Assembly: GCF_000143985.1 (NCBI RefSeq)
Contig: NC_014364.1
Location: 2,728,001-2,792,000 of the forward strand
Direction: 5' to 3'
Source of the DNA: Sediminispirochaeta smaragdinae DSM 11293
GTDB lineage: Bacteria; Spirochaetota; Spirochaetia; DSM-16054; Sediminispirochaetaceae
Length of the DNA: 64,000 bases
Position 1 is the stretch's first letter. Every line of letters starts with the position of its first letter. Below, piece by piece: positions 9,827 to 32,721 of the stretch. The notes under the pieces were generated by a model that did no database searches, had not been told where the DNA came from, and worked only from the letters and a program-made list of their open reading frames with translations. The position numbers and the translations under genes were made by a program.

Positions 9827-11848
9827 TCACTCGATTTTGATTGCTTCAAATGAAGTTAATGTATCAAGATAAAAGTAAATTTTATTTCCTTTTAATTCAT
9901 AGTTACATTCTTTTCCCGTGAGCATGCTTTTAACCGAACTCGGTTCTTTACTGCAAGGAACGGCTACATATATATCGTGCAAATCGACCGGCTCGAAATA
10001 CGAATTATTGAAGTAGCCGGTTCCATTGATAAGATGTACATAGCTTGCAGAATCATCCTTTTTTTTGTTCCACGTTATCTCTACTGCCGGCGGTGCATTG
10101 CTCTCCACAGGCTCGTATCCCAAGGTATTTTCGAGCAGGTCAGCCATAAAGTTATCCATGCTCGGGAATCCAAAGCGCTGGAATTCATCTCCGGGATACC
10201 AGGGGATATATACAGCCCTACCCTTGCCGTAATTATTGATGGTAAAAGCAGGATAGTCGGTTATGTTTGTATGGTACGCATTCTCGGGAGGAGCAAACCG
10301 ATGAGGAGGGATCAGCCTCATATGTTTTTTAACACTATCATTGTAATCGGCATATATGTAAGTATTATGCAAATACACATAATCGGTCTGACCAAAGCGG
10401 GGAAACCCTTTTTTGGATGAGAACGAAAAATAGGCCGAAAGTATATCATTGGTGATTTTACCGATACGCCTGATTCCCAAAGATGTAAGGGCCGAGCCTG
10501 AACGCCGGTTATTGCTCTTGTCGAAGAAACCGGTAGTACCGACACACACTACAGTTCCTCCGCTCTGGACAAACTGATCCATCTTTTCAGCCGTCTTTTC
10601 GTCAAGCTGATTAACATCAGGAAAGATCAAAAGGCTGTATGTATCGAGAGAACGTTGATCCAGCACCTGGTCTTCGATGCAATCAAAAACGTGGTGATGC
10701 TCACTCAATATATTGAACCATCCGATATATTCGTCCAGTTTTTTCATGGACAGAAAACTATGGAGCCCTCCGATAGGTTTGATAAGCGCTATCCGCGCAT
10801 TTGTTTCAATATCAACATAATCGTCTTCATTATCCTCATGATATTTAAACATGCGCTGAACTTCGGTATACCCCGATTTGTCTCCGTGTGTATCAAGCCG
10901 ACCAACCATATAATAGTCCGATGTACCACCATTGGCCAGCGACTGCGCAATTCTCAATCCTTGTTGATATGGCGACACAGACGAATGACGGTAGATCATA
11001 TCGATAAAATCTACACTGGTTACCGACGCGATCCTTTCGGGATACGACGTCTTCTCCGTTTTTATGATCTCAGAGGCTTTATAATGGTAATTTTGCTTTG
11101 GGTTCTCCAAAAACGTACCAGCTTCTCCGCGGAGCATATCTCGACGGGGAGCAAAACAGAGATCAGGCTTTTCTTCCGCAACCATCTCTTTGATATGTTC
11201 ATAGTACGCTTCGGTAGTCTTCTGCTGAAAAACCATGTATTGCTGAAAAATCGGATCATTTTCATTTTCTTCAACGGGAAGTTTTTTCCCGAACATCTCA
11301 TGGAAACGTCTCTGGCAGTTTTCGCACTGGCAAATGCCCTGCCAGCCATGGGTATAATCATAGGCGACAAAATAACCACCCATATTCATGAAAATGCCAT
11401 CAGGATTAAGCTCACGGATGATTTCACGCATGATGCTGATTGCATGTCTCTGTTGATATTCACTATTAAAGCATACATGGATGTTTCCATAGTAATCGAT
11501 GATTTTTCCTTTTGGACTTACATATGCCCAATCGGGATGATGTTCGTAAATAGGAGTGCGTACTTTTGAGAAATCCACCCGACTAAACACCCGTATTCCT
11601 TCGCTCTGGCATGCCCTGATGATCTCTTTCAGGCTATCTCCGGTCAGGTACTCATTCTTAAAATGAAAAGGGAATTTTGTGTCATAGCTGGCGACAATAC
11701 CACCGGTATTAATGATAGCGGCATTGGCATGAAACGCCTTCATGTCGGCAACATATTGCTTTGCGCTGATGTCACGCATATCAATTTCACGCATATTCGT
11801 CTGCACGATTCGCCACGGACGGTCTTGCCACCAAAATTTTGAATTCAT
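9827..11848 (-). CDS. Cytoplasmic GHL6-type glycoside hydrolase-like protein
   Basis: The 673-residue protein has no signal peptide. Its first about 340 residues look like the hypothetical glycosyl hydrolase 6 (GHL6) TIM barrel: ANAAIINTGGIVASYDT, the DGIFMNMGG strand, and a Cys cluster C-x-C-x2-C (ICQCENCQRRF) of the type seen in this family. A beta-galactosidase-trimerisation-like Rossmann domain follows at about residues 350-590 (LLIFPDVNQLDEKTAEKMDQFVQSGGTVVCVG), then a beta domain. A paralogue with the same layout lies two genes upstream (12933-14981). The substrate is unknown; the neighbouring importer suggests that the glycoside is taken up intact and cut inside. Confidence 0.78.
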   Translation of the reverse strand: MNSKFWWQDRPWRIVQTNMREIDMRDISAKQYVADMKAFHANAAIINTGGIVASYDTKFPFHFKNEYLTGDSLKEIIRACQSEGIRVFSRVDFSKVRTPIYEHHPDWAYVSPKGKIIDYYGNIHVCFNSEYQQRHAISIMREIIRELNPDGIFMNMGGYFVAYDYTHGWQGICQCENCQRRFHEMFGKKLPVEENENDPIFQQYMVFQQKTTEAYYEHIKEMVAEEKPDLCFAPRRDMLRGEAGTFLENPKQNYHYKASEIIKTEKTSYPERIASVTSVDFIDMIYRHSSVSPYQQGLRIAQSLANGGTSDYYMVGRLDTHGDKSGYTEVQRMFKYHEDNEDDYVDIETNARIALIKPIGGLHSFLSMKKLDEYIGWFNILSEHHHVFDCIEDQVLDQRSLDTYSLLIFPDVNQLDEKTAEKMDQFVQSGGTVVCVGTTGFFDKSNNRRSGSALTSLGIRRIGKITNDILSAYFSFSSKKGFPRFGQTDYVYLHNTYIYADYNDSVKKHMRLIPPHRFAPPENAYHTNITDYPAFTINNYGKGRAVYIPWYPGDEFQRFGFPSMDNFMADLLENTLGYEPVESNAPPAVEITWNKKKDDSASYVHLINGTGYFNNSYFEPVDLHDIYVAVPCSKEPSSVKSMLTGKECNYELKGNKIYFYLDTLTSFEAIKIE

Positions 11849-11871: not shown

Positions 11872-12924
11872 TTATAAGATTGCCAAGCCTTCGACATTAA
11901 GCGCCTTGGCGCATTGATTCAGCTTATCAAACAACTCACCCGATATATCAATGGAAGCCGATCGCTCAAATTCAACCTTGTTTTTGTAGGAGTGTTGCCC
12001 TGGGATATGAATACTCGGGGCCCGCGCATCAATCCTGTCTATGAGATCGGAACTGCGGCCGATATAGCTGTCCATATCCATAAGTGCATCCGCTTTAATG
12101 GCAACGGCAGTATGGGAGCTAGACTTCCACGCCATATCGGGGCCCTCCTGCTCATCAAGTACAGGCCCCTGTGAAAAAACTCCAGTCAGGAGTTCGCATA
12201 GAATGGCAAGCCCAAACCCTTTATGTCCGCCGATAGGATACTTCGTACCACGTAAAAGTTGTTCGGCGTCAGAGGTAGGCCTTCCGTCGGGGCCCACTCC
12301 CCACCATTCGGGGACAGGTTGCCCCCCTTTCGCCCTGCGAAGAAGCTGTTCCCCCGATGCATACGCAAGACAAATATCCAGAATCACCGGCCATTCACGC
12401 TTCGTTGGAAACGCGAAACCGACCGGCGACTGACCTATCACCTTTCCATCCGTTCCGGGAACTCCCATTGAAGGAGGCCCCTTCGCAATGACTATACCAA
12501 TACATCCACGCTCCGTAGCCTGCGTCGTATAGGGCGAGCTTGCAAGGTAGTGGTTGGAATTGCGGACCGTGGAGAACCCTATACCGTGGTCCTGCGCAAG
12601 AGAGACGGCCCGTTCCATCAGAAATGTATTGATAAGTTCTCCAAGGCCGTTGTCACCGTCCCAGCTTTCCATACATCCATAGGAAGCAAGTAATGAAAAT
12701 TCGGGATTGACGGTGATCTTTCCGCTCATCAGCCGTTCGACACGACTCGGGAAATTATGGATATCGTGGTGTCCGACACCACGTTTTGTGATCTCTATGT
12801 ATATATCCACGACGGTCTCAATGTTTGATTCCGTCATTCCTAATTTTTTTAGGATATTATGCATAAAGACTTTTAACTCATTAAATTTTACCGTATACAT
12901 TGGCATCTCTTTTCCGATTAACAT
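11872..12924 (-). CDS. Ldh/AllD-family NAD(P)-dependent dehydrogenase (malate/L-lactate/ureidoglycolate type)
   Basis: This 350-residue enzyme belongs to the type-2 malate/L-lactate dehydrogenase family, which includes ureidoglycolate dehydrogenase AllD and 2,3-diketogulonate reductase. Recognisable parts are HHDIHNFPSRVERL near residue 54, GFSTVRNSNHY with the catalytic-type His near residue 130, the cofactor segment around ILDICLAYASGEQLLRRA, and GGHKGFGLAIL. It lies between the two GHL6-type genes with gaps of 8 and 23 bases. A start at ATG 12903 (MYTVKF) is also possible. In allantoin degradation AllD makes oxalurate, the substrate of the FdrA-type complex; FdrA and an AllG-like protein are encoded in this same operon, but the true substrate is unknown. 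Confidence 0.85.
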   Translation of the reverse strand: MLIGKEMPMYTVKFNELKVFMHNILKKLGMTESNIETVVDIYIEITKRGVGHHDIHNFPSRVERLMSGKITVNPEFSLLASYGCMESWDGDNGLGELINTFLMERAVSLAQDHGIGFSTVRNSNHYLASSPYTTQATERGCIGIVIAKGPPSMGVPGTDGKVIGQSPVGFAFPTKREWPVILDICLAYASGEQLLRRAKGGQPVPEWWGVGPDGRPTSDAEQLLRGTKYPIGGHKGFGLAILCELLTGVFSQGPVLDEQEGPDMAWKSSSHTAVAIKADALMDMDSYIGRSSDLIDRIDARAPSIHIPGQHSYKNKVEFERSASIDISGELFDKLNQCAKALNVEGLAIL

Positions 12925-12932
12925 GCTTAGAT

Positions 12933-14981
12933 TTAAATCAACTTGACCAAAAGCATGTCCCAGGCATCCAGCCGTTCGAGATTCACTTTCAGCAAATCCC
13001 CGTCAATATTGAAGTCGACTCCACACTGGGCTATCTTTGAGACCACGGCTTTGACCTTTCGACCGCCAAGCTTGATTTCAGCTCTGATATTGTAGCAAGG
13101 GATAGTGTCCTGTAGCGGGCGTTGTCCAATACCGTTCACCAAGTGGAGCATCAGTCTGTCTTCTTTGCCGAAGACCGACATGATGACTCTCTTGGGAGCG
13201 TCAAGTCTGATCATTTTGTCGTCACCGAGCATATATTCCACATAGCCACGAATCATCGTGAACATATCGTCCAGTGCATATTCCCTGATAAGCCTGCTCG
13301 GCTCATAGGAAATAAACATAACCTTCCCCTTTTTGTAGTTGCTTACCATGCACAAGGGTATGTTTGTATGAGAAACAGGCAAAGACGCCCGCTCAGGGGG
13401 CATACCGGCGGTAGCGACACTCGCAAAGGGCGGTACCCACGTCACAAGGATATCTGTTTCCTCACCGGGCTCACAGAAACCGACCTTGCCACGGAGAGGT
13501 ATCAGGCCAGCGTCGCCTAATGTATTCTGAATCTCCTTCCCCGCCGGCTCGATTTGAAGATACGTGGCTTCCAGGTCCTCGCTGGAAACAATCGTGTCTT
13601 TGGTCCCAAGTAGCCCTTTTACTTCGGCCAGTTCCGTGTCAGTCGTACCCTCTATGATCAACCTTCCGCCGTTTGCCACATATCTTTCAAAAATAGATTT
13701 TGAGCCCTCCGGATATTTGAACTGTTTCGGTATAATCACCACGGGATATTCCCTGATGCGGTCGTAGTCGAGTTGGTAGTGCGCAAGCATATCGAAATCG
13801 ATGTGTGCACACATCAAGGCCTCGGCCCAGCCTTGTACGTAGATTCCGCCGTCGCTGAGGAGCATGACGTCGCATACACTTTTTGCGCCATTCATATCGT
13901 CCACGATTTTCTCGGTCATCCGATTGAATGTTTCGATCGTGCGTAACATGCGTTTATCGGAGATCGTATCGGTAAAGCCGGTAAATGTTGTCCAGTACGT
14001 TCCCCCATTCGCAGGGATCTGAGCAGCCCAATACAGAAACTCGGCCTCCGGCATGCATGCGTGCCTCCAGTCCATTCCGGGACAGGTATGAATAATCCCG
14101 ACCGGCGGCGGAAAGTCCTCGACCGTGCGGCCCATTTTCATGCGCAATGAAGGCGTATTCCATTCCGGAAGCTTATGAACCCCCAATGAGAGCACATCCT
14201 GCGCCTCGGTACATAGGGTGTTCCCTTCTTCGCCCATGTTTTCAAGATTATCCGCAGGGAGTGTGAAACCAATGCCAATATCCAGATCAAAAGGCCAGTA
14301 ATAACGGAGGTAGGGCATATCGGGTTTCATTTTCAAAAGGGTATCTTTTAATGCATGGTGGGTGATTTTCGCCTGAGATGTAAGCCAGTCCGGCTCCAGT
14401 AAGGACTTATCATCCGGCATCGGCTTACCGTATTTCTCCATGTAATTCTTTTTGCATACATCGCACCAACACCCGGGGCCAGAGGCCCCCATCATGATAA
14501 ATGCACCGTCCAAATCGTATGTTTTGAAGGCCTCCGTGATAACACGCAGACCATTCTCATTACTGAACCCGCTGTTGGGACAAGATCGATACAATGTATG
14601 CCACAGTCCCGGGCGGTCGTCACCCAAAGTAACGGGAGACCCGTCAGGACGCCTTGCCGCCCATTGCGGCTTTTGATAATACACATCCTCCTCCATGCAG
14701 GAAAATGTGGCACGTGCAAGCACCTTTATATCGCGTGCATGGCATTCATCGACGATTTCTTTCAGTATATCCCTATCCTCAGGCAAGAATTGATTGACCG
14801 TACAATGCTGAATTGATGTGCGATACCACACAACACTGTCCGCAACATTGATGACAACAGTATCGCCTCCCATTTCCACAGTCTCCCGGGCAATCCGTGC
14901 CGCATCCATGAGTGGTGTATCTTTTATCTGAAGATTGTACTGGACAATTCTTAATTGCTTATGCCACCATTTCTTTGTCAT
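12933..14981 (-). CDS. Second cytoplasmic GHL6-type glycoside hydrolase-like protein
   Basis: The 682-residue protein is a diverged paralogue of the one at 9827-11848. It starts similarly (WWHKQLRIVQYN against WWQDRPWRIVQTN), has a barrel strand DGAFIMMGASG and the Cys cluster GCWCDVCKKNY. The middle holds a trimerisation-like domain (VIIPKQFKYPEGSKSIFERYVANGG, GRLIIEGTTD). There is no signal peptide. Divergence across most of the length suggests two linked glycosidic substrates, or two subunits, rather than a recent duplicate. The gene starts 35 bases after the acetate-kinase-like gene. Catalytic acids cannot be assigned by eye. Confidence 0.77.
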   Translation of the reverse strand: MTKKWWHKQLRIVQYNLQIKDTPLMDAARIARETVEMGGDTVVINVADSVVWYRTSIQHCTVNQFLPEDRDILKEIVDECHARDIKVLARATFSCMEEDVYYQKPQWAARRPDGSPVTLGDDRPGLWHTLYRSCPNSGFSNENGLRVITEAFKTYDLDGAFIMMGASGPGCWCDVCKKNYMEKYGKPMPDDKSLLEPDWLTSQAKITHHALKDTLLKMKPDMPYLRYYWPFDLDIGIGFTLPADNLENMGEEGNTLCTEAQDVLSLGVHKLPEWNTPSLRMKMGRTVEDFPPPVGIIHTCPGMDWRHACMPEAEFLYWAAQIPANGGTYWTTFTGFTDTISDKRMLRTIETFNRMTEKIVDDMNGAKSVCDVMLLSDGGIYVQGWAEALMCAHIDFDMLAHYQLDYDRIREYPVVIIPKQFKYPEGSKSIFERYVANGGRLIIEGTTDTELAEVKGLLGTKDTIVSSEDLEATYLQIEPAGKEIQNTLGDAGLIPLRGKVGFCEPGEETDILVTWVPPFASVATAGMPPERASLPVSHTNIPLCMVSNYKKGKVMFISYEPSRLIREYALDDMFTMIRGYVEYMLGDDKMIRLDAPKRVIMSVFGKEDRLMLHLVNGIGQRPLQDTIPCYNIRAEIKLGGRKVKAVVSKIAQCGVDFNIDGDLLKVNLERLDAWDMLLVKLI

Positions 14982-15016: not shown

Positions 15017-16204
15017 TCAAGTTGTATATTCGTAGGTTCGTTTGGCGATTCCCAATTCTTCGTCGGTAGGAATTACACAGATCTTTACCGACGAGGTGCT
15101 TCCTGATAGGTCCATGGATCCACGGCACATCCTGTTTTTCTGTTCGTCAAGGGCCACACCCAGCACAGATAGTTTCCTGCAGACTTCTCTTCGGACCATA
15201 TCGGATTTTTCACCGATTCCACCGGTGAACACGAGGTAGTCAAGACCACCCAAATCAACATAAAACGCACCTATGTAATGCACTATCCCGCTGATGAAGA
15301 CATCGATCGCAAGCCGCGCCCGGGAGTTGCCCTTTTCAGCCGCTTTTTCTATGTATCGTAGGTCGTTGCTGATACCCGAAATACCAAGGAGCCCCCCCCG
15401 TTTCTGAAATCCATCTCTGATTTCATCATCGGAAAGCCCTTCATGGGCCAGGAACTCATACAGGTCGCAATCCATATCCCCCACTCGGTTCGCATGAATC
15501 AAACCTGATTGCAGCGACATGCCAAAACTCGTATCCACGCTTTTCCCATCTTGTATGGCGCAAACGGATGAACTCCCACCCAAATGACACGATATGGCGC
15601 GATAACCAGTCGAGCAGTCCTCATTCAACTTGTCCGCTATATATGCGTGGGACGCACCGTGATATCCAAGCCGCTGTACACCATATTTTTCATACCACTC
15701 GTACGGAACCCCATAGAGGCGCCGTTCAAGGGGTATATTCTGATGGAATCCGGACTCAAACGTCCCTACAAACAACACGCGAGGCAAGACTTCCCGCATT
15801 GCGCTGATGGTCTCCAGATAAGCGGTATTATGGAGCTTTGCCAGTACCAGCCATTCCCTCATACCGTCCATTACCTCATCGGTAAGCTCATGGACCCCAA
15901 AATGATTTTTGGACAATGTCGCCTTGTAGCCGACCCGATCAATTTCTCCTATTGAGGAAATCACACCGTTTTCCGTATCGGTCAAGTATTCGAGGAAGGT
16001 ATTGATCCCCGTTCTGTAATCGGGTATATTCACCTTTTCCCGGTTGATCTCGTGACTATTTCGGAAGTTCTTAAACTGAAATACTGCATCGTCGACACTA
16101 CCAACGCGCTCAACTTTACTCTGTGCCAAAAGACGACATTCAGGCATCGCATACAACTTAAATTTCAGCGAAGTACTGCCGACATTACAGACCAGGATCT
16201 TCAT
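15017..16204 (-). CDS. Acetate/butyrate kinase-family (ASKHA) acyl-phosphate kinase-like protein
   Basis: The 395-residue length and the motifs MKILVCNVGSTSLKFKLY, GYHGASHAYIA, DTSFGMSLQSGL, FTGGIGEKSD and IPTDEEL place it in the acetate kinase family. Compared with Methanosarcina acetate kinase, R90, H182, R240 and E382/E383 align with catalytic R91, H180, R241 and E384. The residue aligned with D148 is E150 (FESGFHQ instead of FDTAFHQ), and the HRVVHGG substrate loop is replaced by DRVGYKATL. It may therefore use another acyl or carbamoyl phosphate. In allantoin-type clusters a carbamate kinase occupies this position, so ATP formation from the product of the FdrA/AllG-like proteins is a reasonable inference. 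Confidence 0.85.
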   Translation of the reverse strand: MKILVCNVGSTSLKFKLYAMPECRLLAQSKVERVGSVDDAVFQFKNFRNSHEINREKVNIPDYRTGINTFLEYLTDTENGVISSIGEIDRVGYKATLSKNHFGVHELTDEVMDGMREWLVLAKLHNTAYLETISAMREVLPRVLFVGTFESGFHQNIPLERRLYGVPYEWYEKYGVQRLGYHGASHAYIADKLNEDCSTGYRAISCHLGGSSSVCAIQDGKSVDTSFGMSLQSGLIHANRVGDMDCDLYEFLAHEGLSDDEIRDGFQKRGGLLGISGISNDLRYIEKAAEKGNSRARLAIDVFISGIVHYIGAFYVDLGGLDYLVFTGGIGEKSDMVRREVCRKLSVLGVALDEQKNRMCRGSMDLSGSTSSVKICVIPTDEELGIAKRTYEYTT

Positions 16205-16247: not shown

Positions 16248-17129
16248 TCAATATATTGTATCCCCGGCGACCTTCTCGTAATACTTTGCTATCGCACTAT
16301 GATCGCACTGTCCAAGCCCATCGGCACGTAACGTCTGCATCATTTCCATAACCTGCACGGTCAGCGGTAAGGGGGCTCCCTTTGCATGAGCCGTTTCAAT
16401 CGCGTTGTTCAGATCCTTTATGTGCAGGTCTATTTTGAAACCCGGATTTGTGTTATTTTCCAGCATCATCGGGCCTTTTGCATTCATAACGGTACTACCG
16501 GCGAGTCCCCCCTTGATCGCCTGGAACACGGTATTCGGATCTACTCCGGCGCGCTTTGCCAGCATAAAAGCCTCCGATACGGCGGCAATATTAACGGCAA
16601 CAATAACCTGGTTGGCGAGTTTTGTCGTATTACCGGCTCCTGCCCCACCACAATACACGACATCGGATCCCATAAGGGTAAGGATACCCTTGCATTCATC
16701 AAATAAATCTTTATCCCCCCCGCACATAATCGATAGAGTACCGTCGACGGCCTTTGGTTCCCCACCGCTAACCGGTGCTTCCAACATTCGCACACCTTTT
16801 TCCGCGCAGGATGCCGCAATCTCCTGTGACGCCAACGGATCGATCGAGCTCATGTCGATAACGATCAATCCCTGTTTTGAACCACTCAGTACTCCATCTT
16901 CACCGCATACGACGGTTTTTACATGTGGAGAATTCGGAAGCATCGTGATCACGAGGGGGCATTTCCCAGCCACGTCCGCCGGAGACTTTCCAGCACTCGC
17001 ACCCAATTCTTTGAGAGAATCGATACTCTCTTTATTAATGTCGTGCACAACCAGATCGTGCCCGGCCTTGATCAAGTTGCGCGCCATCGGTTTTCCCATA
17101 ATGCCAAGTCCGATAAATCCAATCTTCAT
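16248..17129 (-). CDS. GarR/GlxR-like beta-hydroxyacid dehydrogenase (tartronate-semialdehyde reductase type)
   Basis: This 293-residue member of the 3-hydroxyisobutyrate dehydrogenase family has an N-terminal Rossmann motif (GFIGLGIMGKPMARNLIKAGH), the substrate segment APVSGGEPKAVDGTLSIMCGG and the catalytic lysine in NTTKLANQ near residue 170. GlxR of allantoin/glyoxylate pathways reduces tartronate semialdehyde to D-glycerate, and this protein resembles that branch. Its ATG overlaps the TGA of the phosphopantetheinyl transferase gene (ATGA), implying translational coupling. With the hydroxyacid dehydrogenase at 26304-27272 it suggests that the imported substrate yields C2/C3 oxoacids. Confidence 0.88.
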   Translation of the reverse strand: MKIGFIGLGIMGKPMARNLIKAGHDLVVHDINKESIDSLKELGASAGKSPADVAGKCPLVITMLPNSPHVKTVVCGEDGVLSGSKQGLIVIDMSSIDPLASQEIAASCAEKGVRMLEAPVSGGEPKAVDGTLSIMCGGDKDLFDECKGILTLMGSDVVYCGGAGAGNTTKLANQVIVAVNIAAVSEAFMLAKRAGVDPNTVFQAIKGGLAGSTVMNAKGPMMLENNTNPGFKIDLHIKDLNNAIETAHAKGAPLPLTVQVMEMMQTLRADGLGQCDHSAIAKYYEKVAGDTIY

Positions 17130-17710
17130 AACTGCTTCTCCTTTTTCAAATTCGAAGATAATACCCAGTTGATATCCGGTATTTCTTTTTCATCTTTCAC
17201 ACAAATTGCCGCCCGCCACTTTTTTCCCGAAAAAGTTTTGAACGAAAACCCCTTTCTATTCGACGTAACCGTTTGCCCAACTCCGATATCAAATACCGTT
17301 GTTTTCATGGCCGTTTGGGGGTGATACGTGATACCTTCACCGGTACATTTCACGTAACTCTCCTTCAGGGTCCAAAGGGTATACATCAGCCCAATCTTAT
17401 CGGAGCTGTCACGATACCGTGTCAGCTCACTAAGATGCATGATGTACGGTGCCAGTACGGCTTTGCTGAGCACCACCTCCTCGATGTCGACACCAATCGG
17501 CGTATCTGCCAACCCGCACAGTACATACGAACCGCTGTGGCTGAGGTTGAAATGACACTCAGGATGGTCCGGGAACCAAGGCTTGCCCCCTTTCGTGAAA
17601 GCAATATCCGGTAGTAGCGTCATATTCCAGATTTGCCCTATGGCATATTGCAGCAATGTTCTTGCCGTTTTTCTTCCATCCTCACTACCGATCGTCGCAA
17701 ATAACCACAA
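17126..17710 (-). CDS. 4'-phosphopantetheinyl transferase (Sfp/AcpT-type)
   Basis: The 194-residue protein has the family signatures: a CHFNLSHSGSYVLCG segment, the Mg-binding GVDIEEV (near residue 73) and WTLKESYVKCTGEG (near residue 112). Such enzymes move phosphopantetheine from CoA to a serine of a carrier protein. The start is a TTG at 17710 with TAAGG eight bases upstream; a stop in frame just above excludes a longer protein. The gene lies 54 bases after the short FdrA-like gene and overlaps the next gene. No carrier protein is encoded nearby, so its presence in a catabolic operon is odd. It may act on a carrier elsewhere in the genome. Confidence 0.87.
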   Translation of the reverse strand: MWLFATIGSEDGRKTARTLLQYAIGQIWNMTLLPDIAFTKGGKPWFPDHPECHFNLSHSGSYVLCGLADTPIGVDIEEVVLSKAVLAPYIMHLSELTRYRDSSDKIGLMYTLWTLKESYVKCTGEGITYHPQTAMKTTVFDIGVGQTVTSNRKGFSFKTFSGKKWRAAICVKDEKEIPDINWVLSSNLKKEKQL

Positions 17711-17764: not shown

Positions 17765-17944
17765 TCAACTGCCTCCCAACATCGACAAAATGTCCTGCAT
17801 TTTCTTGTCCCCACCGGCCAATGGTTTCCAATCGACCTGTGCGACCGTAACTCCCTGCTTTACGAGGGCATCGCCCATTCGTCTGGTGCCCACATTGATT
17901 ACAACCAACGGAGAACCGAACAGCTTTTGGATCTTGTCACTCAT
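17765..17944 (-). CDS. Short FdrA-like protein, 59 aa
   Basis: The product (LFGSPLVVINVGTRRMGDAL, then GVTVAQVDWKPLAGGD) resembles the small fdrA-domain proteins that accompany FdrA and DUF1116 genes; the same element also appears within some longer family members. ATG 17944 with GAGAGG upstream overlaps the FdrA stop codon by eight bases, so the two are translationally coupled. A small subunit of the FdrA/AllG-like complex is a reasonable inference. It may take over part of the role of AllH, which has no homologue in this window. Confidence 0.75.
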   Translation of the reverse strand: MSDKIQKLFGSPLVVINVGTRRMGDALVKQGVTVAQVDWKPLAGGDKKMQDILSMLGGS

Positions 17945-19493
17945 TCCTGTTCCTCTCATTTTTTACGCGGATAATTTCACCGGCCAACAGCGCCGCACGA
18001 TAGTTTGTGGGGCAGACCAAAACGCCAGCGTCCCGTAGCATGGATTCCTGGTGGTCAAGATTCTGGAGGTCGGCATCGGTCCCACAAACGGACGCTACTA
18101 CAGCCAACTTGCCTCCCCGCTCCCTGGCCAATTTCATCGCGCCTTTTATGTCCTCGATCACGTCTCCCACCGGATCGATCGGTCCGGGAGGGGTCAAAAC
18201 AAAATCCAATAGAAGAACGGCAACCTCCGGGTCCCTCGCCTCCTTCATGATCGCCGGCTTTCTGACGCTCGGCTCCATGGTCGGGTGAGGACGACCACGG
18301 GTGAACTCTTCTTCACCGTAATCAATCACACTGTTCTTAACGCTTTTATATGAATCTTTCAGACGAAGTTCGGGCGACAGCGGTGCATTTGAAAAGATAT
18401 CCCCTATCTTCTCCCGCATGACCCGCATGGCTTCATCACAATAGGTGCCCCCAAGAAAGGCACCCCGAACATACTTCTGCTCGTTGTTCATCTCTTTGGC
18501 GGTTTCAGCCGCCAGCGTCATCAGATCTTTTTCGCTGCCGAGATCAAGCTTCTTGCCGATAAGCGCCAATGCTTTTCGTGCAGCGTCTTCCAGGTTCGAT
18601 GCCCAAATAGCGCCGGATTTTTCGATCTCGTCTTTGCTGCATCCCATAAAGTAGATGACTACCGGCTTTTTACAGCAAGATACCCGGTCAAGTACACGTT
18701 TTAGAACGGTATCGCCTGGCTTTCTTGATACCAATACGATGTACTTTGTTTCCGGATCGTTCTCCAGCGCGTCGATTCCCATCAGCATCGTGATACCACC
18801 GATGGGATCTTTGGTGTCGTTGCCCCCTGTTCCGATTGCCTGAGAAATCCCGCTCCCCACCTTATGCATCAAAGCGCCAACAAGCTGAATTCCTATACCA
18901 GAAGCCCCGCACAATCCAAAGGGCCCTCTATTATTAATAGAACCCAGAACGAAGGCTACGCCGTTTAAATTAACGACGCCGCAGTCGGGTCCCATACACA
19001 AGAGTCCCTGCTTCCGGGCGAGTTCTTTTATGGCACGCTCATCTTCAAAAGATACATTGCTGCTGAAAATGATGGTATGAAGACCAGCATTCAGCGCCTT
19101 TTCAGCCTCACCACGGGCGTATTCACCCGGAACCGAAATAATACACACGTTGGCGGACGGGTTCTGCTCCACAGCCATGGTAAGTGTCGGGTATGTTGTC
19201 TCTTTTTCGCCTGATTTTTTTCTGTGGTTTATTAATTCCTCTATTTTAGCCAGACTTTTGCGAAAAACTTCCTCGGATGCCGTGGAAACCGCAATGATCA
19301 AATCACTTTCAGACGCGTTGTTGATCTCATCATTGATCATATCAAGATCGCGCAGTACGTCCTTGCCAACCTGTGTGCCCATAGATACGTACGCCTTTTC
19401 TACGCCCTCAATCTCCAAAAGCACTGACGTTGTATAAAGGGTTTGTATCGAATCAAAGTATTGATTACTCCTTATTTCCGAGAAAACAGCCAT
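17937..19493 (-). CDS. fdrA: FdrA-family acyl/carbamoyl transferase subunit
   Basis: The 518-residue protein is related to succinyl-CoA synthetase alpha. The central nucleotide-binding-type part is seen in GLLCMGPDCGVVNLNGVAF, GLCGASGIGIQLVGALMHK and GISQAIGTGGND, and a C-terminal part lies at about residues 410-510. In E. coli, FdrA (AllF) with AllG and AllH forms oxamic transcarbamylase, which turns oxalurate plus phosphate into oxamate and carbamoyl phosphate. The start at ATG 19493 (AGTAGG upstream) lies one base after the stop of the DUF1116 gene; a longer frame exists but would overlap that gene. Tight coupling on both sides supports a complex. Confidence 0.88.
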   Translation of the reverse strand: MAVFSEIRSNQYFDSIQTLYTTSVLLEIEGVEKAYVSMGTQVGKDVLRDLDMINDEINNASESDLIIAVSTASEEVFRKSLAKIEELINHRKKSGEKETTYPTLTMAVEQNPSANVCIISVPGEYARGEAEKALNAGLHTIIFSSNVSFEDERAIKELARKQGLLCMGPDCGVVNLNGVAFVLGSINNRGPFGLCGASGIGIQLVGALMHKVGSGISQAIGTGGNDTKDPIGGITMLMGIDALENDPETKYIVLVSRKPGDTVLKRVLDRVSCCKKPVVIYFMGCSKDEIEKSGAIWASNLEDAARKALALIGKKLDLGSEKDLMTLAAETAKEMNNEQKYVRGAFLGGTYCDEAMRVMREKIGDIFSNAPLSPELRLKDSYKSVKNSVIDYGEEEFTRGRPHPTMEPSVRKPAIMKEARDPEVAVLLLDFVLTPPGPIDPVGDVIEDIKGAMKLARERGGKLAVVASVCGTDADLQNLDHQESMLRDAGVLVCPTNYRAALLAGEIIRVKNERNRNE

Positions 19494-19494
19494 C

Positions 19495-20748
19495 CTACTT
19501 AGCTCCCTTGACTTTCTCACTCAAAGCAACAAGACCTTCCTTGAAGCATTCGATCGGAAAATCACAAGAACCAGCAGTGCCCTGCCCACCGGCCTTAAGC
19601 GTCCCGCCGCCGTGGCTTGTCGGGACAATATTCAGTCCGACGACCTTCCGCATATCAACACCGACGGGGAATCCCCTGAAATCATCCCACGGGATCGGCG
19701 CAAATTTGTGCTCGCCCAGACATACGGCACGAGCGTTTTCCGTACGACGCTTGGCCTCACTGAAATCATGGCCCGTCAAACGGACATATCCAGGCCCCGC
19801 GACCGCCGACATGCCGCCCAATCCGTAGACCTCGGTTACACAACTGTCACCCAGGAAGCCGAGCATGTCATCTGCCGTATAAGACGGGTTGAGAAATTGC
19901 CCAAGGATTTTCGGCGCCGGCGTGGTAAACCACTCATCTCCCGTCCCGCTGAATTTGAGGCCGAATTCGACCCCGTTGCCGCCCATGCCGACCATTACCG
20001 TCGACATCGGGATGTTTCTGGCGGAATAGATTACGCTTTCCGCCCCAGCCATCATCACGTGCAGGAAAAACCGGTCATTGGCGGTGTATTCCTTGATGAT
20101 ACGGTCCTTTTTCGGAAAATCTGAATCGAGCATGAATGGCAACAGATGCAGTGCCATAAACATCGACGCGGCAGGTTGGCGATTGTGATTTTCATCCCCC
20201 ATACCGGCGGTCTTTGCGAGAACCATATGCAGATCCACGCCACGGGCCTTGCGGACCGTCTCTCCAAGGGCAGGGCCGTAATAGTCGCGGAACCACTCCA
20301 ATTCGCGCTGGATTTCGTCGTCGTAAAAACCCCAGCGTAATACGTGCAAAGAGGTTCCCGGATGGGGTACACAAAATCCTTTACCACCAAAGGTTTTATC
20401 TTCGCAGACAATCACCGGCATAGAAGCCGAGGTGGCCATCGCGGCACCGCATGCGCAACTGTAATCCTGCGCTGATGCGACCTCAATCTCGCCGTTCAGC
20501 ACCATATTCCATGCCTCGTCGGCATTCTGTGCCAGTCCTTCGTATATAGCTGCACCGCAAAGCGCGACTTTTACCGGATATACAATCTTTTGCACGTCTA
20601 TAGGCGGCCCTGCAATCAGGATCGTGTTACTCTTCATATTGGGAATCACATCACCGGCAGGCTGCACATCGGTCCATACAGGGCGTCCTTTTACCAGAAC
20701 ATCCACTGTCTTCTTGTTGGCTTCCTCTATCTGTGTTTCGATGTTCAT
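19495..20748 (-). CDS. DUF1116 (AllG/YlbE-like) protein
   Basis: The 417-residue protein shows the DUF1116 pattern: VQKIVYPVKVALCGAAIYEGLA, DYSCACGAAMATSASMPV, KTAGMGDENHNRQPAASMF, VMVGMGGNGVEFGL and PTSHGGGTLKAGGQGTAG. In E. coli, AllG works with FdrA (AllF) and AllH in oxamic transcarbamylase. Here it is immediately followed by FdrA. The conserved AGMGDENHNR-type motif is intact, suggesting an active protein. A good ribosome binding site (AAGGAG) precedes ATG 20748. No AllH homologue (DUF2877) is present, so the complex would have a different make-up. Its real substrate is unknown. Confidence 0.87.
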   Translation of the reverse strand: MNIETQIEEANKKTVDVLVKGRPVWTDVQPAGDVIPNMKSNTILIAGPPIDVQKIVYPVKVALCGAAIYEGLAQNADEAWNMVLNGEIEVASAQDYSCACGAAMATSASMPVIVCEDKTFGGKGFCVPHPGTSLHVLRWGFYDDEIQRELEWFRDYYGPALGETVRKARGVDLHMVLAKTAGMGDENHNRQPAASMFMALHLLPFMLDSDFPKKDRIIKEYTANDRFFLHVMMAGAESVIYSARNIPMSTVMVGMGGNGVEFGLKFSGTGDEWFTTPAPKILGQFLNPSYTADDMLGFLGDSCVTEVYGLGGMSAVAGPGYVRLTGHDFSEAKRRTENARAVCLGEHKFAPIPWDDFRGFPVGVDMRKVVGLNIVPTSHGGGTLKAGGQGTAGSCDFPIECFKEGLVALSEKVKGAK

Positions 20749-20805: not shown

Positions 20806-21756
20806 CTAATCTACAAGAATGCAACGCACAAAATGACCACTGGACACCTCTCTAAACTGCTGCACTTCCTTGCATCTTTCAGAAGCAAACCTGCATCGTG
20901 ATGTAAAACGGCATCCCGGGGCGGGGTCTATCGGATTTCCCACCTCACCCTGGAGCAAGTGCCGTTCCCGGTTCTTTCTGGAAAGGTCGGTTGTGGGTAT
21001 CGCGGAAAGCAACGCCTTTGTATACGGGTGCAGATGATTGGAAAAAAGTTCATCGCGCGTAGCGTATTCAACGACCTGACCGAGATACATGACGGCGATA
21101 TAATCGCTTATGTGCCGTACAACGCAGAGATCATGCGTGATAAACATATAGGCGAGTCCCCTTTGATCCTGCAAATCCATGAGCAGGTTCAATATCTGCG
21201 CTTGAATGGATACATCGAGCGCAGATACGGGCTCGTCGCACACAATGAAGTCAGGGTCCACGGCCAAGGCTCGAGCCAGTCCAACCCTCTGACGCCGACC
21301 ACCGTCAAGTTCATGCGGATAGGTATTTACATATCGCTCGGGGAGTCCGCACAAATCCATTATTTCTTTCACCGTTTCTTTTATCTTTTTCTTACCTTTT
21401 ACATTACCGATCACTTTCATCGGGTCCGATATGATTTCGGATATCGACATTCGTGCATTGAGCGATGTAAATGGATCCTGAAAAATCATTTGCATCTGCG
21501 CACGCATTGTTTTCATCTGTCTGCGGTTATAGCCGACGATATCACTGCCGTCGTAAAGGATTTCACCTTCCGTGGGTTCAAGCAGACGTAGTATGGTTCT
21601 CCCGAGTGTCGACTTCCCACAGCCGGATTCTCCAACAACGCCGAGAGTTTCGCCCTTTTTGATCGTCAGGTTCACATCATCGACGGCGTGGAGAAGCCCA
21701 GCCCGCGTCTTAAAATACTTTTTCAGTCCCCGTGTCTCAATCAATGGTGCTTCCAT
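20806..21756 (-). CDS. Oligopeptide/dipeptide-type ABC transporter ATP-binding protein (OppF/DppF-like)
   Basis: This is the second ATPase of the Opp-type importer, 316 residues from ATG 21756, three bases after the OppD-like stop. Walker A is GESGCGKST, Walker B is [12 protein letters not shown], and the signature is the variant LDGGRRQR instead of LSGGQ. The C-terminal oligopeptide-ABC domain has the usual spaced cysteines ([14 protein letters not shown]). It energises uptake together with the OppD-like ATPase. The altered signature occurs in other OppF-like proteins as far as I know, so loss of activity is not implied. Confidence 0.92.
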
Positions 21757-21758
21757 GG

Positions 21759-22742
21759 TTACTTGTCCCCCTCCATATCGCTGAACAGAAAGCACTTGAT
21801 GCTGTGTGTCCCTATCGCATAAGAGGGTGGAACATGGGTTTTACACTCCTCCATACAATACTTACACCTCTCGGCAAATTTACAGCCGGCCGGAAGATTG
21901 GTAGGATCAGCCATAAAACCAGGTATGGGAACCAGCCGCTCCGTGTCGCACGTCAGATTCGGAATACTGTTGAACAGCCCTTCCGTATACGGGTGGTTGT
22001 GATCGCGTGTGAATACATCTTCGATCGTGCCCTTTTCAATGATTTCGCCGGAATAGACGATAGCCACATTTTCACAGAACTCGGCTACCACTCCCAGGTC
22101 GTGCGTTATGAGAATCATTGAGGTGTCAAATTTGTCCTTCAGTTCCTTCATCAGCTTGAGGATCTGGGCCTGGATCGTGACATCCAGCGCAGTCGTCGGT
22201 TCGTCGGCGAGCAGCAGCTCGGGTTCCGCCACCAACGCCATTGCGATACCGATCCGCTGCTTCATGCCGCCGCTGAACTGATGGGGGAATTCGTCCTTAC
22301 GCTTGGCCTGAATACCGACGAGTCCGAGGATCTCGTCAACCTTTTGGTCCTTTTCATTTTTGTCCATATCCGGAAAATGCAGGTCGAGGACTTCGAGGAT
22401 CTGGTCACCGACAGTGATGATTGGATTCAAGCTGGTCATAGGATCCTGGAATATCATCGATATCTTTGCCCCACGTAGTTTCATCATTTGATGCTTACGC
22501 GCTTTAAGTATGTCGAGGCTGTTGTACGTAATAGTGCCTTTCGTAACCTGCCCTACCTTTTCCGGGAGCAATTTCAGAATACTAAGCGCCATAGTAGTCT
22601 TACCGGCGCCCGTTTCTCCTACAAGTCCGAGAACCCCGCCCTTTTCAAGGGTCAGATTCAAACCGTTTAGCGCGTGCACCACTGCATCATCGGTGTTGTA
22701 TTGCACATGCAGATCTTTTATTTCCAAAATAGCGTCACTCAT
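21759..22742 (-). CDS. Oligopeptide/dipeptide-type ABC transporter ATP-binding protein (OppD/DppD-like)
   Basis: The 327-residue ATPase carries Walker [10 protein letters not shown], signature FSGGMKQR and Walker [13 protein letters not shown], followed by the switch histidine region ([10 protein letters not shown]). The C-terminal extension with spaced Cys residues ([15 protein letters not shown]) is typical of Opp/Dpp ATPases. The gene lies 11 bases after the OppC-like permease gene and is part of the complete five-gene importer. The substrate class of Opp/Dpp/Nik-type systems includes peptides, opines, glycosides and metal complexes. Confidence 0.93.
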
Positions 22743-22753
22743 ATATGCCCACC

Positions 22754-23641
22754 TTAAACCTTTGACCGGGGGTCCATCGCATCACGAAGCCCGTCACCCA
22801 TAAAGTTGAGACACATAACGCACACTACTATGAACAGCCCCGGTACAAGCCCAAGATGCGGGTAATAGCGTATGTTGATGCGATTCTCAGCCAGGATGGT
22901 GCCCCATTCGGGTGTAGGAGGAGCCACGCCGATACCCAAAAATCCAAGCGAAGCGATCGACAAAATGGTAGATCCAAGTGAAAGTGTGGCACTTATAATG
23001 ACAGGCCCCAATCCGTTGGGTATGATATGCTTGTATATGATCCGCGGAGAACTTGACCCATAACACCGGGCTGCCTCTATAAATTCCTGACCACGCAACG
23101 ACAGGATAGAAGATCTCACCACCCGAGCAAACCGCGGGAACGCGGCTACAGAGAGTGCAATTACCATTTTGAATGTGCCCTGTCCGAGTGCCGCAGAGAC
23201 GGCCATTGCCAACAACATTCGAGGCACGGCCATGAACACATCACAGAACCTCATTATGACATTATCAACCCAGCCGCCAAAATATCCTGCCACGCCGCCG
23301 AGAAGGACACCGAGGGCAAGGGCCATAGCCACGGTGATGAGGCCGGCAAGTAACGATATCCGTCCCCCGTATATGATCCGGGCAAACAGATCGCGACCCA
23401 ATTGATCCGTTCCCAGGATATGACCATCGGTACCGGGAGTAAGGAAGCGATCTTTTATACACTGTGTATATACCGTTTCGTAGTCTATATACAGAGGCGC
23501 GGTAAGACTGGCTATGACAAGAATCATAATGACAACCAGCCCAATCATTGCAAGTTTGTTCTTTCTGAAACGGAACAGGACAAGCCCCCACGACCCTCTA
23601 TTAACAATGGAGCCTGAGCTCTTGATATTCTTTCTTTTCAT
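22754..23641 (-). CDS. Opp/Dpp-type ABC transporter permease (OppC-like)
   Basis: The 295-residue permease has six predicted membrane helices, the OppC-type N-terminal segment (LFRFRKNKLAMIGLVVIMILV) and GTDQLGRDLFARIIYGGRISL. The EAA-type loop, where the ATPase docks, is visible as EAARCYGSSSPRIIYKHIIPNGL. It forms the channel with the OppB-like protein encoded just upstream (gap 20 bases). Confidence 0.93.
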   Translation of the reverse strand: MKRKNIKSSGSIVNRGSWGLVLFRFRKNKLAMIGLVVIMILVIASLTAPLYIDYETVYTQCIKDRFLTPGTDGHILGTDQLGRDLFARIIYGGRISLLAGLITVAMALALGVLLGGVAGYFGGWVDNVIMRFCDVFMAVPRMLLAMAVSAALGQGTFKMVIALSVAAFPRFARVVRSSILSLRGQEFIEAARCYGSSSPRIIYKHIIPNGLGPVIISATLSLGSTILSIASLGFLGIGVAPPTPEWGTILAENRINIRYYPHLGLVPGLFIVVCVMCLNFMGDGLRDAMDPRSKV

Positions 23642-23661
23642 TGAAATAGATCTCCCCTTTG

Positions 23662-24591
23662 CTATGACAAATAGCCGTGCTTAACTCTTGGATCCACAAC
23701 GGCATACAAAAGGTCGACAAGCAGATTCGCAAACCCGACAAAGCATGCGATGATGATCACTATTCCCGTGACTACCGGAACGTCACGCAGCTTGACGGCA
23801 CTGATCAACAGTGAAGCCACTCCCGGTATGGCAAACACCGTCTCCGTTACAATTGCACCGCCGAGCAATAGCGCGAAGCTCAAGCCAAGCTGCGTAATAA
23901 CAGGTAACAGACCGTTTCGCAGCACATGTTTGATAATGACCCGCCTTTCGGACGCACCCTTGGAACGAGCGGTTCTCACGTAATCCTGTTTAATAACTTC
24001 GAGTATGCTTGTACGTGTCATCCTGACTTGACTCGCAAGTTGTGCTGCCGCAAGCGTTATCGCTGGTAAAACGAAGTGTTTCAGCGAGCCAACACCGGTG
24101 GCAGGGAGCCAGCCAAGTTTCAAGGCAATATAAACCTGCGCCATAAGGCCGAACCAAAAGGAAGGCATCGACGTAAAGATCATCGCCACTACCATGCTCG
24201 TATAGTCAAACACGCTGTTTTGCCGCACCGCCGCAAATATTCCGAGTGGGATTCCGACCAAAGCCGATATGGCCATAGCCATCATGCCGAGCGTCAGGGT
24301 GTTTGGAAGACGAGCACCAAATTCCGAAAGAACGTTAAACTTATTGTACCAGGAGAATCCAAAATCTCCCTGTACAACGCCTTTCATATAATTCACATAG
24401 CGTACAAGTAGAGGATCATCGAGGCCTAATTCAGCACGCTTAGCCGCTATAGCCGCCGGCGATGCCTCTGTCCCCAAAATCAGCTGGGCCGGATCCCCCG
24501 GTGCCAAGCTCATAATGAGGAATATAAAGAAACTGATTCCTAAAACAACTGGTATGACAAAAAGCACACGCTTAAGGATATATTTTACCAT
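23662..24591 (-). CDS. Opp/Dpp-type ABC transporter permease (OppB-like)
   Basis: From ATG 24591 (GAGG eight bases upstream) the protein has 309 residues and six membrane helices. Typical elements are the first helix followed by LAPGDPAQLILG, GDFGFSWYNK and the ATPase-docking loop DYVRTARSKGASERRVIIKHVLRNGL. It pairs with the OppC-like permease. The gene is separated from the binding-protein gene by 124 bases that contain a long stem-loop. Confidence 0.93.
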   Translation of the reverse strand: MVKYILKRVLFVIPVVLGISFFIFLIMSLAPGDPAQLILGTEASPAAIAAKRAELGLDDPLLVRYVNYMKGVVQGDFGFSWYNKFNVLSEFGARLPNTLTLGMMAMAISALVGIPLGIFAAVRQNSVFDYTSMVVAMIFTSMPSFWFGLMAQVYIALKLGWLPATGVGSLKHFVLPAITLAAAQLASQVRMTRTSILEVIKQDYVRTARSKGASERRVIIKHVLRNGLLPVITQLGLSFALLLGGAIVTETVFAIPGVASLLISAVKLRDVPVVTGIVIIIACFVGFANLLVDLLYAVVDPRVKHGYLS

Positions 24592-24611
24592 GATGTACCT
24601 CATCAAAAATT

Positions 24612-24675
24612 AGAAAGGGATTCTCCGAAGTTGTTGAGTAACTGCCTCCATACATTATTTCGAGAATCCCTTTCT
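24612..24675 (-). other. Long stem-loop between binding-protein and permease genes
   Basis: AGAAAGGGATTCTC (24612-24625) and GAGAATCCCTTTCT (24662-24675) are perfect 14-base inverted repeats with a 36-base loop. No T run follows. Such hairpins after a binding-protein gene usually protect the upstream mRNA and lower permease expression; here that is inference. Confidence 0.75.
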
Positions 24676-24715
24676 GTTCACCCATGGGAGTTAATGGCTC
24701 CGGATGTGGTCTTAT

Positions 24716-26303: not shown

Positions 26304-27272
26304 TTACTCTGGATTTACGATATTCGTCGGTTGTCCCAGCTGATACTGTGCAAGATTACGCACTGCGACATCCATCAGGCGCTGCCTGCTTTCTTTTGAT
26401 GCCCAGCTAATATGCGGTGTAATGATGCAGTTTTTGGCCCGAAGCAAAGGGTTGTCTTCCTTTATAGGCTCCGTCGATACAACATCCAAACCCGCGCCAT
26501 ACACCTTTCCGCTATTCAGCGCATCGGCCAAGTCCTGTTCAACGATCAAGGGGCCACGACTGTTGTTCAAAATAATCACGCCGTCTTTCATCTTTGCGAT
26601 ATTGACTTTATTGATGATGCCCTCTGTTTCGGCAAAGAGAGGACAATGTAAAACAACGACATCAGATTGAGCCAACAGGGTATCCAAATCAACATAGGAT
26701 ACCACCTGCTCGCCGCTTGCATTGGGAAAGGAGTCATACGCAATAACCTTCATGCCCAGCGCACCTGCTATCTTCGCAGTGGCCTGTCCAATACGACCGA
26801 GCCCGATAATACCCATGGTCTTTCCCGCAAGCTCAATCAGGGGATAATCCCAAAAGCACCAGTCGGCATTTTGTGTCCAACGGCCTGCATGAACCGCCTT
26901 ATCATGGTGTCCCACGTGATGACAGAGTTCCAACAGCATCGCAATAGCAAATTGCGCTACCGCTGAAGTGCCATACGCCGGGATATTGGAAACAAGAATT
27001 CCACCCTTGCTCGCCGCCTTTACATCCACAACGTTGTAGCCGGTTGCCAAAACTCCAATGAATTTGATTGAAGGACATGTGGCTATCGTCTCGGCACTAA
27101 TCGGTGTTTTGTTGGTATACACTGCTTCACAGTTTGCAATACGGCGCTGAATCTCCGCTTCGTTATCCACCGGTGTCCGGTCGTACACGGTCAAATCTCC
27201 CAGCGTTTCGAGGGCATCCCAGCTCAGGTCCCCTGGGTTTTCCGTATAACCGTCTAATACAACAATCTTCAT
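26304..27272 (-). CDS. D-2-hydroxyacid dehydrogenase (hydroxypyruvate reductase/glycerate dehydrogenase type)
   Basis: The 322-residue NAD-dependent enzyme has the Rossmann motif GIIGLGRIGQATAKIAGALG and the catalytic triad of the family: Arg in NNSRGPL, Glu in STEP and His in TPHISW. The overall form is closest to glycerate dehydrogenases, which interconvert hydroxypyruvate or glyoxylate with D-glycerate or glycolate. It lies 12 bases after the sugar-isomerase-like gene at the head of the operon. Together with the GarR-like reductase it points to C2/C3 oxoacid intermediates. Confidence 0.88.
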   Translation of the reverse strand: MKIVVLDGYTENPGDLSWDALETLGDLTVYDRTPVDNEAEIQRRIANCEAVYTNKTPISAETIATCPSIKFIGVLATGYNVVDVKAASKGGILVSNIPAYGTSAVAQFAIAMLLELCHHVGHHDKAVHAGRWTQNADWCFWDYPLIELAGKTMGIIGLGRIGQATAKIAGALGMKVIAYDSFPNASGEQVVSYVDLDTLLAQSDVVVLHCPLFAETEGIINKVNIAKMKDGVIILNNSRGPLIVEQDLADALNSGKVYGAGLDVVSTEPIKEDNPLLRAKNCIITPHISWASKESRQRLMDVAVRNLAQYQLGQPTNIVNPE

Positions 27273-28181: not shown

Positions 28182-28296
28182 GAAAACAAATCCTCCATTT
28201 GTGTCAATACCACAATGTTCCTCATAGACGCTGCAAACCCGGATAATCCTCACGTATCTGTTGTAGATGCCAAAATTGGTCAGTGCACTTTCATTC

Positions 28297-28325: not shown

Positions 28326-28454
28326 CGAAAACATTTGTGGATTTTCGGTGTATAAATGCTCTTGAATAAGCGTTTCATAGCCAAAATGCACATATTTTTA
28401 GGTAGAAGTAGATGAATATATACTTTCTATGTACCATAGATAGTTATTTTGCTA

Positions 28455-32720: not shown

Positions 32721-32721
32721 C

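Follow-up and report, generated by a model that had tools for sequence, protein, structure and literature searches.

A clade of the acetokinase family with an altered substrate site, recurrently encoded with AllG and FdrA relatives, may make ATP from an unusual acyl phosphate

Results

A kinase of the acetokinase family

A gene in the window (the whole 64,000-nucleotide stretch of DNA analysed here) encodes a kinase from a conserved, separate clade of the acetokinase family, and this clade is recurrently tied to AllG/FdrA operons, many of which also carry sugar-acid or glycerate genes. The explanation that we favor, at a rough probability of 45%, is that the kinase of this distinct clade makes ATP from an acyl phosphate released by FdrA-AllG(-AllH), the acyl group probably being carbon-based. 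We use the label KIN both for the kinase of the window and for its clade.

15017-16204, minus strand: KIN, acetokinase-family kinase of 395 aa in the separate K91/E148/G211 clade (reading frame, Pfam and NCBIfam profiles, alignment, tree, model)

The reading frame is intact, with 395 codons. KIN matches the acetokinase family model PF00871 over its full length (residues 2-388 of 395; 320.2 bits, cut-off 22) and the AckA subfamily model TIGR00016 at 315.3 bits, just above the cut-off of 293.4, which bears out its first description as an acetate-kinase-like protein. Profile scans gave no match to the amino-acid-kinase family: PF00871 was the sole Pfam match, and the ArcC models gave none. Both Buk models scored far below their cut-offs (NF002834, 72.7 against 222 bits; TIGR02707, 55.4 against 289.1 bits), and KIN as a Buk was set aside on these scores. 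Among solved structures, M. thermophila AckA and further acetate/propionate kinases are the closest to it; an AlphaFold model (mean pLDDT 94.6) compared with AckA 1g99 gave Z 52.3 and an rmsd of 2.1 over 392 residues.

The substrate site is altered in a fixed manner

Residues are numbered here on M. thermophila AckA, aligned to KIN. According to PMC6461089, Arg91 and Arg241 of AckA contact the substrate carboxylate; with R91A, M. thermophila AckA retains 0.3% of its kcat, and P. gingivalis AckA 0.6% of its activity. The acetate contacts of Salmonella AckA include Val93, Leu122, Pro234, and Arg243 (PMC3475010). In KIN, the catalytic His180, Arg241, and Glu384 are kept as H182, R240, and E382; Arg91, Asp148, and Asn211 are replaced by K, E, and G, at the following codons.

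15923-15925, minus strand: K94, at the place of catalytic Arg91 of AckA (alignment; K in 80/80 relatives)
15755-15757, minus strand: E150, at the place of Asp148 (alignment; E in 80/80 relatives)
15575-15577, minus strand: G210, at the place of Asn211 (alignment; G in 80/80 relatives)

Further, Asn211-Gly212 becomes G210-S211, F179 becomes Y181, P232-L233 becomes L-Q, and the HGG loop is lost. The first-pass annotation was right to place E150 at Asp148, and to match H182, R240, and E382/E383 to catalytic residues of AckA, where they align with His180, Arg241, and Glu384/385. Its choice of R90 as the catalytic Arg, however, fails: in the alignment, where 'EIDRVGYKATLSKN' of KIN stands opposite 'EINAVGHRVVHGGE' of M. 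thermophila AckA, R90 faces Ala87 and K94 faces Arg91. It also overlooked G210-S211, Y181, and L-Q, and the loop that it read as 'DRVGYKATL' in place of HRVVHGG had been taken out of register.

The same residues recur among relatives, taken as the best 80 of 559 genome stretches encoding one and picked by similarity alone. All 80 carry K, E, G, and S at positions 91, 148, 211, and 212 (the residue-table row for one relative, L244, comes from a wrong reading frame; the right one reads GFK, FET, and HLGGS), whereas all 45 canonical enzymes carry R, D, and N at 91, 148, and 211; of these, 32 were picked by name or Pfam score and 13 sorted as canonical by the motif itself. Among the 80 relatives, 74 have Y at position 179, 45 have A at 122, 23 have T at 93, and all have Q or E at 233, P232-L233 being mostly L-Q/E. 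H123, H180, H208, R241, D283, and R285 are present in 80/80, N7 and K14 in 79, and E384 in 77 (some rows are shortened). Because K/E/G/S is fixed in the 80 relatives against R/D/N in canonical AckA, the substrate pocket is re-set in a conserved, clade-defining manner, in keeping with the original claim of an altered site; perhaps it offers room and polarity for a group other than methyl. Decay or damage of an AckA was ruled out as an account of KIN, the signature being fixed in 80/80 relatives.

KIN forms its own clade and usually accompanies another acetokinase

In a careful tree of 50 chosen sequences, among which PduW is absent, a 100/100 branch split the KIN clade (37 rows) from AckA/TdcD (13 rows), so that KIN forms its own clade. 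One KIN row comes from Candidatus Poribacteria, and two come from genomes of the window's phylum besides its own. A quick tree of more sequences, which used Buk as its outgroup and from which 29 of 122 rows were dropped beforehand, agrees, except that its Poribacteria row is unresolved. On these two trees KIN falls within no known AckA or Buk clade, the placement that would have spoken against the annotation. L202 and L248, both divergent members, carry K, E, G, and S yet retain the HGG loop; hence the core signature may have come first. Among 392 genomes of the window's phylum, 17 match the kinase at E 1e-87 or better, and four of these (the window, L211, L218, and L219) are clade members by motif.

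The 44 KIN genomes searched cover 44 of the 80 loci. Of these genomes, 40 contain a further acetokinase match that scores 400 bits or more; all 30 that were motif-checked read R/D/N. The four genomes that lack such a match are G395, G417 (which has a 185-bit fragment), G425, and G430; in G437, KIN itself scores 423 bits, alongside an AckA of 528. The window's genome encodes, besides KIN, a canonical AckA (469.7 bits); two Buk-like genes lie elsewhere in it, and an ArcC-type carbamate kinase lies at a separate site. On the 40/44 count, KIN as a stand-alone housekeeping acetate kinase was set aside. One genome, G403, carries two clade kinases: the divergent L202:8214-9413, in an operon with AllG, FdrA, AllH, and glycerate kinase, and L031:1238-2419, with no AllG nearby.

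KIN might still be an ordinary second acetate/propionate kinase with conservative substitutions: it scores above the TIGR00016 cut-off, has the fold of AckA (Z 52.3), and with K and E preserves the charges of R91 and D148. We nevertheless find this quite improbable, given that (i) R91, D148, and N211 are replaced in 80/80 KIN, (ii) R91A leaves just 0.3-0.6% of AckA activity (PMC6461089), (iii) KIN occupies a separate clade, and (iv) a further acetokinase match, scoring 400 bits or more, is present in 40/44 KIN genomes.

The window operon and its relatives

KIN lies in a run of minus-strand genes that ends, probably, at a divergent regulator.

9827-11848, minus strand: GHL6 protein b with a GH42M domain (Pfam)
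11872-12924, minus strand: Ldh_2-type dehydrogenase (PF02615, 278.3 bits; under every NCBIfam cut-off matched)
12933-14981, minus strand: GHL6 protein a, putative glycoside hydrolase (PF14871, 138.3 bits; also directly after KIN in L245)
16248-17129, minus strand: GarR-like 2-hydroxy-3-oxopropionate reductase (NF008592, 461.3 bits, cut-off 397)
17126-17710, minus strand: 4'-phosphopantetheinyl-transferase-like reading frame, between FdrA and GarR (ACPS, 41.4 bits)
17937-19520, minus strand: FdrA/AllF-like subunit, 527 aa (NF004760, 381.1 bits, under the cut-off of 433; Ligase_CoA, 89.1; many columns in common with E. coli AllF)
19495-20748, minus strand: AllG-like subunit, 417 aa, on a branch apart from E. 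coli AllG (PF06545, 234.9 bits, cut-off 27)
20806-26284, minus strand: Opp/Dpp-type ABC importer, OppF, D, C, B, A (OppA by SBP_bac_5, 284.1 bits; B, C, D, and F named from reading translations)
26304-27272, minus strand: D-2-hydroxyacid dehydrogenase (profile scan; a 497-bit relative lies directly after KIN in L035)
27285-28391, minus strand: AP_endonuc_2, xylose-isomerase-like TIM barrel (profile scan)
28531-29214, plus strand: GntR/FCD regulator, divergent, probable cluster end (profile scan)

FdrA and AllG are thus neighbors of KIN, as the annotation had reported. The AllG is the only one in the window's genome, in which a PF11392 profile search found no AllH, and the genes scanned in the operon include no sugar-acid dehydratase, SDR, or glycerate kinase. 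The phosphopantetheinyl-transferase-like frame overlaps GarR by 4 bases; a search of the 80 relative loci with the proteins of the window gave no match for it, and its membership in the system is doubtful. GHL6b is present in 18/80 KIN relative loci. The closest syntenic relative, L245 of genome G488, reads OppABCDF-AllG-FdrA-KIN-GHL6a-GHL6b, which is the window order minus the GarR, phosphopantetheinyl-transferase-like, and Ldh_2 genes; its Opp genes precede AllG in the order of the window, and an 88-bit GntR relative is divergent upstream of OppA.

Beside the cluster, 30439-33558 (minus strand) and 33804-34817 (plus strand) encode an aldo/keto reductase, a Gfo/Idh/MocA oxidoreductase, a second AP_endonuc_2 TIM barrel, and a LacI regulator, in what looks like a separate sugar cluster. 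Farther on, 39205-40703 (minus strand) holds two genes for the FlaA flagellar outer-layer protein, as expected in a spirochaete.

Neighbor genes of the relatives were called with a rough gene caller and grouped in Louvain clusters, which were named from Pfam scans of representatives. FdrA occurs in 28/80 and AllG in 27/80 KIN loci, counts that include near-copies (e.g., L026-L029) and cut contigs; many of the genomes are incomplete MAGs, in which absences weigh little. On the 50-row tree, the label "linked" needs at least four changes on starred branches, gains and losses being undistinguished; two rows so labeled are L044, where AllG is on another contig and AllH adjoins KIN, and L063, where AllG is ~11 kb off. 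With near-copies counted, GarR is found in 12/28 FdrA-linked KIN loci against 0/52 others, and glycerate kinase in 10/28 against 2/52. AllH adjoins KIN in L044, L054, L065, L067, L089, L202, and L248. We take it as likely that KIN is served by FdrA/AllG in the window operon.

Several relatives bring in sugar-acid genes. L067 reads SDR, flavoprotein, IlvD/EDD, FdrA, AllG, KDPG aldolase, KDG-type kinase, KIN, AllH; L065 has the same content, and L069 stops before AllH. The order in L248 is SDR, IlvD, flavoprotein, FdrA, AllG, KIN, and an AllH-like gene (38.8 bits), and that in L204 is SDR, IlvD, flavoprotein, FdrA, AllG, the genome of L204 carrying KIN and AllH on a separate contig. IlvD/EDD and SDR are accordingly in a row with FdrA-AllG genes in all five distinct IlvD loci, the SDR matching generic SDR models only, under their cut-offs, and the flavoprotein matching a broad family only. 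L058/L209 and L063/L205 have a UxaA/GarD-type dehydratase instead of IlvD (with TRAP transporter genes in L205), and L202 reads GHL6b, GarR, AllG, FdrA, KIN, AllH, glycerate kinase.

KIN stands where E. coli has AllK

In E. coli the order is allF-allG-allH-allK. KIN stands where AllK would be expected, beside FdrA in 28/80 loci, and no locus holds both: AllK-like genes occur in 4 of 147 loci (L151, L246, L251, and L252), none with KIN, in a count that rests on one E. coli query and on a set including some overlapping stretches of the same contig. AllG loci thus have KIN, AllK, or, in many cases, neither. G488 holds both AllG types, one with KIN and one with AllK. Two AllK loci have further context: L246 carries a gene like allC, and L251 matches a purine permease weakly, at 28 bits. 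In L246:8155-11175, FdrA and AllG are apparently fused in one 1007-aa reading frame, beside AllH-, AllK-, and AllC-like genes. Thirty other AllG-bearing genomes of the phylum sample (L126-L154 and L121) have no KIN near AllG, and in the stretches read, some on contigs of ~3 kb, just L151 has AllK near AllG; two of the thirty, G323 and G345, have KIN elsewhere in the genome.

The AllG of KIN operons is itself distinct. In a tree made by a quick method, with long branches flagged and 10 near-copies dropped (71 to 61 rows), a starred branch sets the KIN operon types (27 rows, 23 distinct) apart from E. coli and 33 other AllG; the AllG of L247 and L248 are absent from this tree, and L203, L204, and L205 among the KIN-type rows have KIN on another contig or ~11 kb away. 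Three of the 33 other-branch AllG stem from KIN genomes (G417 and G432), and these two, of 16 KIN genomes with AllG, have only other-branch AllG. Many AllG and FdrA columns are common to all groups; at seven columns of AllG and two of FdrA the KIN types are fixed for a different residue, the switched AllG columns including N116D, N190Q, M315A, and N380H/T381G (E. coli to KIN type).

The annotation had set KIN in place of a carbamate kinase. As a matter of position this stands; carbamate chemistry need not follow from it, since many operons have sugar-acid or glycerate genes and ArcC is found elsewhere in the genome. A stricter form would have KIN as a carbamate kinase by non-orthologous displacement, FdrA-AllG splitting a ureide to carbamoyl phosphate and KIN replacing AllK. 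The core complex is as in E. coli, with many AllG/FdrA columns in common; the operon place of KIN is comparable to that of AllK, the two never share a locus, and the carbamate kinase assay described in PMC9843812 is unable to separate carbamate kinase from acetate kinase activity. Yet no KIN locus had a match to allB (partial query), allC, or allE, and the single allD-family match among them (115 bits) is in L044. The neighbors of KIN are often sugar-acid or glycerate genes, its operons have their own branch of AllG with switched columns, and the window's genome already has ArcC; displacement is, on balance, unlikely. Given that FdrA/AllG serves KIN, we lean toward a carbon-based acyl group rather than carbamoyl.

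KIN without AllG

Of the 44 KIN genomes, 28 have no AllG, so KIN must have some role without it: either a wider substrate range or a second role where AllG is missing. The part of the AllG-free contexts that was read (18 loci, with a few Pfam scans) gave no common partner. KIN adjoins glycerate kinase in L014 and L024, where the genome has no AllG, and Opp-like genes are near KIN in L228 and L229. In L035:8825-12217, from a genome with no AllG match, an iron alcohol dehydrogenase, KIN, and a D-2-hydroxyacid dehydrogenase stand in a row. In L227:2584-9424, the clade kinase follows, as read by eye, an apparent 2-oxoacid dehydrogenase E1/E2 and two glyoxalase-like proteins.

These 28 genomes, and the contexts in L035, L014/L024, L227, and L228/L229, would suit a short-chain hydroxyacyl- or acyl-phosphate kinase whose substrate has another source, AllG/FdrA being one context of several. 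Against it, the FdrA/AllG linkage recurs over the KIN tree, and in 396 genomes of one family window-type AllG (>600 bits) occurs in three, all with KIN, which itself occurs in five. This draw is centered on G394, found through KIN, and includes G395, also found through KIN; taking both searches as the same draw, the overlap has a Fisher p of 9.7e-7, and without the center 2/2 remain (p 7.7e-5). Six further genomes of the 396 with other AllG lack KIN at the threshold, one of which, G725, has a divergent KIN in the operon (L248). We judge a substrate from another source to be an improbable general account, about on a par with displacement.

Discussion

A possible phosphorolytic route

We return to the favored reading, in which an FdrA-AllG(-AllH) complex would release an acyl phosphate and KIN would act as an acyl-phosphate:ADP phosphotransferase (acyl phosphate + ADP to free acid + ATP), in parallel to the use of carbamoyl phosphate by E. 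coli AllK. The genes scanned in the window operon include neither a dehydratase nor an SDR nor a glycerate kinase, and the genome has no AllH match; for the window, therefore, good support extends only to the general reading, in which KIN acts on an unusual acyl phosphate that FdrA/AllG makes.

Oxamate is an isostere of pyruvate. The E. coli AllFGH enzyme, assigned in 2024, interconverts oxalurate + phosphate and carbamoyl phosphate + oxamate (PMC11326118). In KIN operons FdrA-AllG would probably act on a carbon substrate and not on a ureide: acylpyruvate phosphorolysis would be the carbon counterpart of the oxalurate reaction, with each N replaced by C. We postulate two steps, (i) R-CO-CH2-CO-COO- + Pi to R-CO-OPO3 + pyruvate, by FdrA-AllG(-AllH), and (ii) R-CO-OPO3 + ADP to R-COO- (glycerate, lactate, or glycolate) + ATP, by KIN. 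In the non-phosphorylative Route III, an acid-sugar dehydratase (IlvD/EDD and UxaA/GarD are among the classes) and an SDR 4-dehydrogenase make 2,4-diketo-3-deoxy acids, which an FAH-type hydrolase splits to pyruvate and lactate or glycolate (PMC6336799, PMC11199699). These 2,4-diketo-3-deoxy acids are the acylpyruvates of sugar acids. In the five IlvD and SDR operons the likely substrate would be such an acid, which corresponds to oxalurate with carbon in place of nitrogen. Since these operons have dehydratase and SDR and the loci no FAH gene, we propose that FdrA-AllG(-AllH) may cleave with phosphate there and KIN may collect the acyl phosphate as ATP. A hexonic substrate should yield glycerate, which in window-type operons would be processed by GarR and the glycerate kinases.

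The FAH search of the 147 loci, which found none, was made with one E. coli YcgM query and no positive control. By PF01557, 14 of 21 AllG-KIN genomes lack an FAH-family gene, including four of the five IlvD genomes; the other seven have one, each outside the operon, and include the window's genome and the UxaA-type G419 and G424. Also against the scheme, three IlvD operons carry a KDPG aldolase and a KDG-type kinase, an existing route from 2-keto-3-deoxy acids, and the flavoprotein beside FdrA is left unexplained. We put the 2,4-diketo acid route in the IlvD/SDR operons at slightly under an even chance, and lower for the window. The more specific proposal is an undescribed pathway in which AllF/AllG(/AllH) relatives would cleave 2,4-diketo-3-deoxy sugar acids with phosphate, not water, to pyruvate and glyceroyl, lactoyl, or glycoloyl phosphate, from which KIN would make ATP and a hydroxy acid; in this full form it is speculative, and we would not bet on it. 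Titles and abstract openings in the open-access library searched yielded no acetate-kinase relative coupled with FdrA/AllG or with diketo sugar acids.

If such a pathway exists, anaerobes would save energy that the hydrolytic Route III gives away. More broadly, should the favored reading hold, (i) a class of kinases labeled acetate kinase by generic models would act on another substrate, (ii) AllFGH would be one branch of a wider acyltransferase family, and (iii) substrate-level ATP formation in gut and halophilic anaerobes would include a site that has gone unrecognized. Whether or not the specific route exists, metabolic models should not treat AllG-linked "acetate kinases" as acetate kinases before they are tested, and the K91/E148/G211 signature makes KIN-type kinases easy to find.

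Comparison with known systems

KIN shares with Buk the ASKHA acid-kinase fold (Z 29.7), and differs in giving a partial profile match far under the Buk cut-off (72.7 against 222 bits). As in Route III, dehydratases of the IlvD/EDD and UxaA/GarD classes and an SDR lie beside the core genes in relatives; unlike Route III, the operons show no FAH-type hydrolase, with FdrA-AllG(-AllH) and KIN standing there instead, and the window operon shows neither dehydratase nor SDR among the genes scanned. Like E. coli allFGHK, KIN operons have an FdrA-AllG pair (the window's AllG matching PF06545 at 234.9 bits), a kinase in the operon, and, in several relatives, AllH. They differ from it in that the kinase is of an unrelated family, AllG is of another branch, and no allantoin genes were found in KIN loci; in the window, moreover, FdrA is under the NF004760 cut-off (381.1 against 433) and AllH is absent from the genome (PF11392). 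The closest likeness is to AckA (M. thermophila 1TUU/1G99 and E. coli) and TdcD/PduW, with a full-length fold and Z 48-52 for the best of these. Unlike AckA, KIN has R91 replaced by K, D148 by E, N211-G212 by G-S, and F179 mostly by Y, and has lost the HGG loop (kept in L202 and L248); and, unlike AckA/TdcD, it forms a separate clade in which FdrA/AllG are frequent partners.
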